Assembly (NCBI GenBank): GCA_021739625.1
Contig: JAIPBJ010000015.1
Span: 1 to 41,944, forward strand
Source: Flavobacteriales bacterium
GTDB lineage: Bacteria; Bacteroidota; Bacteroidia; UBA10329
Length of the DNA: 41,944 nt
Reading direction: 5' to 3'
Of the stretch, positions 11,933 through 32,586 are shown piece after piece. A model generated the notes under the pieces. The model had not been told where the DNA came from. It made no database searches and worked only from the letters and a program-made list of their open reading frames with translations. A program made the translations under genes and the position numbers. Each line of letters begins with the position of its first letter. The stretch's first letter is position 1.

Positions 11933-12230
11933 GGCTCAAGGCTTTAGTTCTCCTACTCATGTGGCTTTTCGGTGCCGCCCCGTTTTTATCGTGGTCGCTG
12001 GACTCCACATTCATGCGTGTCATGGTGCGGAGTGGTAGAAGAAACGTGCCATGGCGGGACGGTCATCGACATGCGCCTGTCTATCAACCACATACGGATA
12101 ACCCAACTCTCTCCTGTGGTTTCAAAGTGTGGAGATAATTCCCCAACTGACTTGAGAATTCTCCACAGAGGAATGGAGCATGTAGAGGCGGTCTTATTCG
12201 CTTAACTTTGTTCTTCGGAAGAATAAAGCC
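11933..12230. promoter_or_regulatory. Divergent intergenic region with inverted repeat and -7 element
   Basis: No gene seen. An inverted repeat (12128-12141 with 12156-12167: TGTGGAGA-T-AATTC against GAATTCTCCACA, one bulged T) lies ahead of a perfect -7 element TAACTTTG (12203-12210), 21 bases before the antitoxin start. The inverted repeat is well placed to be an operator for autoregulation of the toxin-antitoxin pair; that role is inferred. Confidence 0.5.
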
Positions 12231-28230: not shown

Positions 28231-28251
28231 TCGTTCACTTTTTTTTGATTG

Positions 28252-28290
28252 AACCCCGAAAATCTGCCGCCAAAGCAGGTTTTCGGGGTT
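28252..28290 (+). terminator. Intrinsic terminator after fadD
   Basis: A 16-bp stem (28252-28267 with 28275-28290, one G:U) with a 7-base loop CGCCAAA. The downstream T-tract is weak (GTCGTTTCTG), so termination may be partial. Confidence 0.75.
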
Positions 28291-28451
28291 GTCGTTTCTG
28301 ATCGCGGGTGTTCATAACCCGGAACGGCCCGTTCCTTCAACAATGTGATTTCGAGGGAATGTGTTCACAACACCGTCCTTTTCGGTTCATAAGCTGTTCA
28401 CAACCGGTGGGTAACGTGTGGGGAGAATGTGGGTAAGAACCGGCTCGGAAA

Positions 28452-28484
28452 TTTGGAAGGAAGGCAGGACGTACTCTACATTTG
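28452..28484 (+). promoter_or_regulatory. Promoter of the candidate noncoding RNA
   Basis: TTTG (28452-28455) and TACATTTG (28477-28484) are 21 bases apart. The likely transcription start is at about 28488-28491, with no open frame of family type following. Confidence 0.7.
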
Positions 28485-28487
28485 ACA

Positions 28488-28790
28488 ATACCAAACAAGG
28501 GATAAAAGGCTGGCCGCAAGGTCAATTCCAAAGGGGTCTCACGGGACATTTCGGAGGGAGAGCGTCAGAATCCAAAGGTCGGCTTGCCGATCGAGGTGAG
28601 GTGGAAACGGTGAAGATGCCCTGCTTGCAGGACGGAAGCCCGAAAAAGCCAAATGAACCGACAGCTTGCTGGCGGGGAGTGAAGACAAAGCCGATGAACA
28701 GTAGTTTGGGGCTTGCAGCGGGTCACGGCCCGATGTGAAGTGAGCGGGAATCTGTCGCAAGACGGGTTCCCGCTTCTGTTTGCGCCTATT
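28488..28790 (+). ncRNA. Candidate structured noncoding RNA of unknown family
   Basis: Following a well-spaced promoter are many short, stable hairpins: TGGCC-GCAA-GGTCA (GNRA loop), TCGGC-TT-GCCGA, CCTGC-TT-GCAGG, CAGC-TT-GCTG, a GGAAAC tetraloop-like stretch (TGGAAACGG) and CGGG...CCCG. The last hairpin is a 14-bp stem (28743-28756 with 28761-28774, two G:U) closed by GCAA. CAAACA (28492-28497) can pair with TGTTTG (28777-28782), which would join the two RNA ends. No good protein frame runs through it. It is neither RNase P RNA nor tmRNA by their conserved words. A degraded group II intron is possible. The ends are approximate. Confidence 0.55.
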
Positions 28791-28878
28791 TGAAGCACTC
28801 CTCACGGCCAGATCCACGCATTGGCATCTGAAACACGAAGCCCTTTGAGAGGCATCCTGCGGATGCCTTTTCTATTTA

Positions 28879-29009
28879 CCACAAAGCATCACGAAGTCCC
28901 GTGCGTGCGGGATGCACAACGGCACACGAAGAGAATTCCTTGTGTGCCTTTGTGACCGCCCTTCGTGTGCCGTTGTGTTGAAAATCAAAGTCCTCCCAAG
29001 GAAGACTTC
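28879..29009 (-). repeat. Two-hairpin dispersed element, copy 2
   Basis: Read on the minus strand, it has the same parts as 22775-22880: AGTCTTCC-ttg-GGAGGACT, TTTTCAACACAACGGCACACGAAGG, and a second, longer stem (28918-28957) with a few mismatches, followed by an extra segment before CTTTGTGG. It lies upstream of bcp. Confidence 0.75.
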
Positions 29010-32056: not shown

Positions 32057-32123
32057 GGGTCAAGACCTTACCTCTATCACGCTGCAAGTAACGTAAATGG
32101 CCACAACAGGTTGTTGAATCGGG

Positions 32124-32160
32124 TCAAAAAATCTCGCCCCGCTCTTCGCCTTGTCCACAA
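32124..32160 (-). pseudogene. fadJ 3'-end relic A
   Basis: 35 of 38 aligned positions match relic B. It encodes the VDKAKSG end of the fadJ protein on the minus strand; a one-base deletion removes the stop from frame. It is the shortest and most decayed copy. Confidence 0.75.
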
Positions 32161-32162
32161 CG

Positions 32163-32414
32163 GCCCACCTGAGTCTGTGAGGGTCGACCTGTCTTCGGGA
32201 AGCCTCGACATGTGTTCCGGAAGGGTCAACCCAAGTTCAGGAAGGTGGCAACCGTGTTCAGGAAGGTGGCAACCGTGTTCAGGAAGGGGCAACCCAAGTT
32301 CAGGAAGGGGCAACCCAAGTTCGGGAAGGGGCAACCCAAGTTTGGGAAGGGTCAACCCAAGTTCGGGAAGGGGCAACCCAAGTTCGGGATAGGTCAACCC
32401 AAGTTCGGGAAGGG
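32163..32414. repeat. 21-bp tandem repeat array 2 (12 units)
   Basis: Twelve units, the outermost left one degenerate. The conserved half is GTTCGGGAAGGG (with A for G or T for C in places); the other half is mostly (G/T)CAACCCAA or GGCAACCGT. Units abut exactly. On the minus strand one frame reads as L-P-E-L-G-L-(T/P) heptads. No spacers, so not a CRISPR. Confidence 0.92.
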
Positions 32415-32451
32415 TAGATTGAATGCAGTGATATTTTATCCGATAGAAACC

Positions 32452-32586
32452 CCGAAGGGGGCTCACTGCTTTTCGCAGTGATCGCAAAGCCTCAATCGCC
32501 AATCCTCAATAAAACCTCCCCCCGCTCTTCGCCTTGTCCACAATGATCTGTGGTGGTAGGAAACGCTCACCGTGCTTCTCGGCAAG
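32452..32586 (-). pseudogene. fadJ 3'-end relic B (135 bp)
   Basis: 130 of 135 bases match 33282-33416, with no indels. It includes 81 coding bases, the stop codon and 54 downstream bases. The five differences lie in codon third positions except one codon (Lys for Leu), the pattern of a diverged functional allele. Confidence 0.92.

Follow-up and report, generated by a model that had tools for sequence, protein, structure and literature searches.

The gap between fadD (end 28230) and bcp (~29100) raises the question of what kind of gene, if any, lies in it. The window is the whole stretch of DNA that was analysed, 41,944 nucleotides. Direct reading of the sequence finds within positions 28452-28790 of this gap a Bacteroidota promoter of its own, a segment of ~290 bases and an intrinsic terminator. 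The initial annotation, which had proposed a structured RNA gene here, placed it accurately, and we lengthen the functional unit upstream to 28384 for a conserved 11-bp repeat array. The reading that best joins the evidence, with a probability of roughly 0.6, is that of a free-standing, trans-acting structural RNA under DnaA-type control, which would represent a new family of the Bacteroidia. Beyond what had been annotated before, the analysis brings a second copy in the genome, a wide spread in the Bacteroidia, a variation in length and the DnaA-box-like array upstream. The features are as follows.

28384-28438, + strand: five exact 11-bp units, GGTTCATAAGC, TGTTCACAACC, GGTGGGTAACG, TGTGGGGAGAA and TGTGGGTAAGA, DnaA-box-like (sequence; phase conserved in homologues)
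28452-28455, + strand: -33 promoter element TTTG (sequence; position kept in homologues)
28477-28484, + strand: -7 promoter element TACATTTG, consensus TAnnTTTG (sequence; position kept in homologues)
28487-28780, + strand: non-coding RNA gene, covariance model match 1-294 (covariance model, covariation with n = 8, second copy in the genome)
28491-28496, + strand: 5' strand of closing helix P1, CCAAAC (126 of 126 cells paired, compensatory changes)
28497-28507, + strand: core internal loop, 5' side, AAGGGAUAAAA, in the family GAGRGAUAAAA (nearly invariant between families)
28508-28511, + strand: 5' strand of P2, GGCU, partner 28689-28692 (alignment, hand reading)
28512-28523, + strand: hairpin with GCAA loop (consensus helix 3, 100% of cells paired)
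28577-28593, + strand: hairpin GGUCGGCUUGCCGAUC (consensus helix 6, seven pairs changed on both sides)
28620-28631, + strand: hairpin CCUGCUUGCAGG (sequence and alignment; outside the RNAalifold consensus)
28659-28674, + strand: hairpin around CAGCUUGCUGG (consensus helix 8)
28689-28692, + strand: 3' strand of P2, AGCC (alignment)
28693-28703, + strand: core internal loop, 3' side, in the family ACAAUAACNGUA (nearly invariant between families)
28704-28709, + strand: 3' strand of P1, GUUUGG (126 of 126 cells paired, compensatory changes)
28720-28731, + strand: 3' hairpin with ACG(G) loop (consensus helix 11 in the alignment of the order, helix 7 in A9)
28743-28776, + strand: intrinsic terminator, a long stem with a GCAA loop followed by a U-rich tail (consensus helix 12)

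A promoter with correct -33/-7 spacing had been described before and can be read in the sequence, since 21 bases separate TTTG at 28452-28455 from TACATTTG at 28477-28484, and both elements recur in the homologues. The final GCAA hairpin of the initial annotation is likewise real and is identified here as the intrinsic terminator, in whose helix 10 pairs are changed on both sides and 98% of the cells are paired in the eight-sequence consensus. Several other structures were observed in the neighbourhood. A strong hairpin AACCCCGAAAA...TTTTCGGGGTT directly after fadD (28240-28295, + strand) is presumably the fadD terminator, and its weak CopA and RybB matches in a low-threshold Rfam scan were taken as chance. 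In the interval between the RNA and bcp lie a further hairpin GGCATCCTGCGGATGCC at ~28850-28870 and an inverted repeat, CACAACGGCACACGAAG / CTTCGTGTGCCGTTGTG, at ~28917-28981. Elsewhere in the window, a DUF805 RNA, which is a known cis-regulatory candidate in Rfam, is matched at 11946-12013 on the minus strand (RF03081, 77 bits), and an open frame of repeats LPELGLPLPELGL... at ~32077-32500 on the minus strand is a tandem-repeat stretch.

The many short hairpins had been counted in favour of an RNA gene, an impression that does not stand as evidence in itself. The folding energy is no better than that of dinucleotide-shuffled sequences (z = -0.55; 58 of 200 shuffles equally good), so the single-sequence fold is no evidence for an RNA gene, thermodynamic stability was dropped as an argument, and it is conservation that carries the case. 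The alignment of the order (A5), made of eight sequences with the second genomic copy of the window RNA among them, has 64 consensus pairs with 93.3% of the cells paired, and 33 pairs are changed on both sides, where shuffles gave 19.3. None of the 500 shuffles reached this count, and the covariation greatly exceeded that of all slid controls. An independent alignment of twelve sequences from family f14 (A9) gave 25 pairs changed on both sides against 11.2 when shuffled (0 of 500). The compensatory changes that the initial annotation had suggested looking for in homologues are, therefore, present in the order, in f14 and in P1 over 21 sequences. In addition, no conserved reading frame was found: almost every frame of the homologues is interrupted by stops, and their indels are mostly not multiples of three, which bears out the earlier remark that the segment holds no credible protein frame. 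Because of the covariation, the paired P1 and the out-of-frame indels, the locus, as judged from comparative sequence evidence, is almost certainly a non-coding RNA gene that stands by itself and has both a promoter and a terminator of its own.

All homologues found share the 5' end CAAGUGAGAGAUAAAAGGC, the closing helix P1, the 3' element AAUAACNGUAGCUUG and the terminator, while the middle between these ends is highly variable and the whole RNA measures 220-712 nt. The helix P1 (in the family CCAAGU with GCUUGG) is paired in 126 of 126 cells over 21 sequences; one of its pairs varies between C-G, U-A, A-U and U-G, another between G-C and A-U. The end-to-end closing helix proposed earlier is, therefore, real in all 21 members, except that it encloses the body of the RNA and not its extreme 3' end; a hairpin and then the terminator follow on the 3' side of P1, and the loop of this outer hairpin is usually ACGG across the family. 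Between P1 and P2 lies the asymmetric core internal loop (GAGRGAUAAAA / ACAAUAACNGUA), which is nearly invariant while the rest diverges. The short P2 shows GGC/GCC, GAC/GUC and GGU/ACC exchanges, read by hand, with a few members that fit incompletely, and the set of hairpins that it encloses is clade-specific. As for the GNRA-type loops noted before, the first hairpin does have a GCAA loop, while the other main hairpins have CUUG loops. The nearly invariant core loop together with the strongly covarying helices marks an RNA structure under selection.

Among 59 genomes searched at the DNA level, that of the window itself yielded the second copy (G000:C75:75165-75474, 85% identical), G006 a relative, and G003 and G005 weaker matches; searches with these sequences as queries added G004, G007 and G008. 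Within the order, only two genomes gave none, both of them incomplete (70% and 83%). The figures for the wider spread are prone to undercounting, since covariance models miss divergent members: the covariance model matched 26 of 395 Bacteroidia genomes, and a model of the 3' module matched 35 of the 78 genera of f14, often with several copies and clusters. This patchy spread argues against a universal essential role. A search of the class with the exact 5' pattern gave 26 matches against ~18 in the control, of which 18 coincide with covariance-model matches and the other 8, having no such match, were taken as chance. A loose 20-base pattern with 3 mismatches returned noise only, and a weak R2 match at L198, in a coding context, was judged to be chance.

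The total length is 287-293 nt in the order and 309 nt in G053, where the covariance model matched over its full length (90.8 bits). Other Bacteroidia families have the same two ends around a much longer middle, and the loci read in G131, G009, G266, G382, G100, G326 and family f23 measure 547-712 nt. Short apparent RNAs of 106-160 nt in the covariance search proved to be artefacts in which the 3' module had been linked to a wrong 5' end; the true 5' ends lie further upstream and give 547-712 nt in total. In f14 a form of ~300 nt prevails among the loci read, and a 220-nt variant is also present. The long f14 forms (L096, L098 and L100) contain in the middle of the RNA a recurring domain, GGGYRYRAAGG-[hairpin]-UUUGAGACGGGNAACCGCAGAARYRC, of which L098 has four copies; the same domain (AAGG-hairpin-GAGACGGGNAACCGCAGAA) occurs once in the short f14 form. 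The outer stem of this domain covaries when read by eye (GCAC/GUGC, GCAU/AUGC, GUGU/AUAC), and its repetition looks like domain duplication within an RNA. Remote variants in G021, G216, G086, G119 and G149 appear by eye to keep the layout. The loci L195, L196, L197, L199 and L107 show an array, a promoter, a CAAG/CUUG or CUAAG/CUUAG closing helix, a CUACGG-type hairpin and a terminator around a different core. Such remote variants with a different core are perhaps part of a larger superfamily.

Upstream of the -33 box, nearly every copy has helically phased DnaA-box-like 9-mers at fixed positions. In the 125 bases upstream of the promoter of 21 homologues, matches to the DnaA box TGTGGATAA numbered 6 when exact, 15 with at most one mismatch and 54 with at most two, against 0.0, 0.9 and 11.3 expected from shuffles, in a comparison that ignores kinship and treats related sequences as independent. 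Counted from P1, these boxes recur at about -63, -74, -86 and -98. Thirteen further f14 copies gave 4, 16 and 47 matches for the same three classes against 0.24, 1.8 and 10.8 in A+T-rich control windows, a conservative control because these windows may include the arrays themselves, and here the boxes lie mostly at -63, -74, -95 and -106. The phased pattern occurs in seven genomes of the order and stands at the RNA in six of them, the match in G001 being at an unrelated place; one copy, L291, is without a clear array. Several RNA copies per genome were found in G799:C54, G730:C33, G791:C12, G785 and G774, most of them with an array of their own.

DnaA boxes in a fixed position relative to a promoter, as the sequence has them here, are what is looked for in a DnaA-regulated promoter, and we regard DnaA-type control of the RNA through the array as probable on this ground. 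In the closest competing reading the RNA still acts in trans, while a dedicated transcription factor with no relation to DnaA recognises the array. The boxes of the order are of the TGTTCATAA type, two changes from the canonical TGTGGATAA, and none stand beside dnaA, so another factor could read the array: the dnaA flanks of the order (L248-L254) were searched and contain no similar boxes and no DnaA-box cluster, which also means that oriC of the order probably lies elsewhere than beside dnaA. Furthermore, the boxes of the order and of family f23 depart from TTATCCACA at the same positions. Against this, several boxes of families f2 and f14 are exact TTATCCACA/TGTGGATAA boxes in the same upstream zone and the same phase, and we consider a dedicated factor rather unlikely, though the most serious of the alternatives.

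A quite different explanation would be an RNA of mobile or phage origin like GOLLD and ROOL, which sit in phage and prophage genomes, frequently close to tRNA islands (PMC12286853). Like these two and OLE, the present RNA is large, elaborately folded and free-standing in bacteria, and the function of GOLLD and ROOL is unknown (PMC12286853); its multiple copies, patchy occurrence and very variable length might also suit a mobile element. Unlike GOLLD and ROOL, the new family is chromosomal, ends in a terminator, lies behind a DnaA-box-like array and has no Rfam match. Its neighbours are ordinary chromosomal genes, blastn against plasmid and phage collections gave no match, and pattern matches on viral contigs were coding or chance only, and a viral or plasmid origin was accordingly rejected, which leaves a mobile RNA very improbable.

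The array might instead be the point of the locus, with the RNA as a transcript associated with oriC or a secondary origin. Phased DnaA-type boxes beside an A+T-rich promoter do form a box cluster of the kind sought in an origin, the phased pattern is near-unique in each genome of the order, and dnaA lies on the same contig as the RNA in G006 and G008, at 75 kb and 52 kb. However, in the two near-complete chromosomes along which GC skew was sampled, the gene is remote from the origin. In G326 (8.16-Mb contig) the skew origin is at ~6.8-7.1 Mb, the terminus at ~2.5-2.7 Mb and the RNA at 3.14 Mb; in G756 (6.75-Mb contig) the corresponding positions are ~6.1-6.4 Mb, ~2.4-2.7 Mb and 2.97 Mb. With the RNA ~3-4 Mb from the skew minimum in both, no local skew inflection on three contigs (G100, G131 and G006), and several copies per genome, nearly all of them arrayed, which speaks for a promoter element, an origin was rejected and we hold it to be very improbable. 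A side observation is that the RNA lies ~0.3-0.6 Mb from the skew-defined terminus in G326:C1 and G756:C1, two cases that may be chance.

Clustered DnaA-type 9-mers occur away from the origin, and DnaA is also a regulator of transcription (cf. PMC11317965). The present array resembles such loci outside oriC and DnaA-regulated promoters in having clustered DnaA-type 9-mers away from the origin, and differs from them in that its helical phase is fixed relative to the promoter of a single RNA family and that it recurs with nearly every copy. We know of no other non-coding RNA family that is defined by such a promoter array.

It is likewise very improbable that the RNA is a known housekeeping RNA (6S, tmRNA, RNase P or SRP) that has diverged strongly. 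A free-standing, highly structured RNA of ~300 nt with a closing helix, a conserved core and a variable periphery does recall RNase P RNA; however, RF00010 was located away from this RNA in 8 of 9 genomes of the order, among them that of the window (G000:C18), so RNase P identity was ruled out. ARAGORN found no tmRNA in the window and Rfam gave no tmRNA match, in agreement with the initial annotation, which had seen the conserved words of neither RNase P RNA nor tmRNA in the segment. The large, helix-closed, conserved internal loop recalls 6S RNA, which acts in trans and is present in Bacteroidota (6S-Flavo RF01685, Bacteroidales-1 RF01693). The new family has a different sequence, and its 220-712 nt and several copies per genome misfit 6S RNA. 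RF01685 gave no match in the nine genomes, with control genomes likewise silent, and the window RNA matched no Rfam 6S model at low threshold. The Rfam covariance search that had been recommended was run over 4227 families (Rfam 15), and none exceeded the gathering threshold for the window RNA or for 16 homologue loci, with nothing meaningful at low thresholds either.

The weakest alternative, a leader or riboswitch that acts in cis on the gene downstream, would fit an RNA upstream of bcp on the same strand, but the RNA has its own conserved terminator and the next gene varies in identity and strand in most homologues, which refutes it for practical purposes. Neighbouring genes differ between families, so the RNA is neither a leader nor bound to one protein gene; some copies in the same genome stand 0.8-2 kb apart in separate intergenic gaps. 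In G006 the RNA likewise follows fadD, and a receptor-like gene is downstream both there and at the second copy in the genome of the window. From the neighbours that vary by family and the copies at several sites per genome, we infer that the RNA acts in trans. No gene was linked to it across the homologues, and any partner named would be a guess.

No description of such an RNA family was found in open-licence papers, with a description elsewhere being possible, and we take the family to be very probably undescribed. As an RNA family it counts as new, since it belongs to none of the known families against which it was checked; as a type of object, a structured non-coding RNA whose role is unproven, it has precedents in GOLLD and ROOL.

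As for a possible mechanism, DnaA or another reader of DnaA-type 9-mers might assemble cooperatively on the array, along a single face of the double helix just upstream of the -33 box; the bound protein would then set the level of the RNA. The conserved internal loop may be where one conserved protein or ligand docks, because the core loop is nearly invariant while the rest diverges. The RNA could act as an RNP scaffold or as a regulator that sequesters a protein. A mode of action by pairing with many mRNAs is less likely, as the conserved bases make up a fixed motif in a closed loop and the hairpin loops are of stable tetraloop types. We put forward the scaffold or sequestering role, in trans through the conserved core loop, tentatively, as slightly short of an even chance. 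Plausibly, the RNA would couple the state of replication or of the cell cycle to some other process.

A structured RNA without Rfam entry or known function is thus present in dozens of Bacteroidia genera, with a middle that runs from short to several hundred bases and, in some species, four copies of one domain. Almost every copy has a phased DnaA-type array, which suggests that the replication initiator and a non-coding RNA are directly connected. More speculatively, and with rather low confidence, the family may be widespread and rapidly diversifying, with its expression governed by DnaA through the phased boxes, so that the RNA would join the replication cycle to another process, or act back on DnaA, by way of its conserved RNP core. 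To our knowledge, DnaA regulation in Bacteroidota has been little explored, and this RNA would offer a handle on it.
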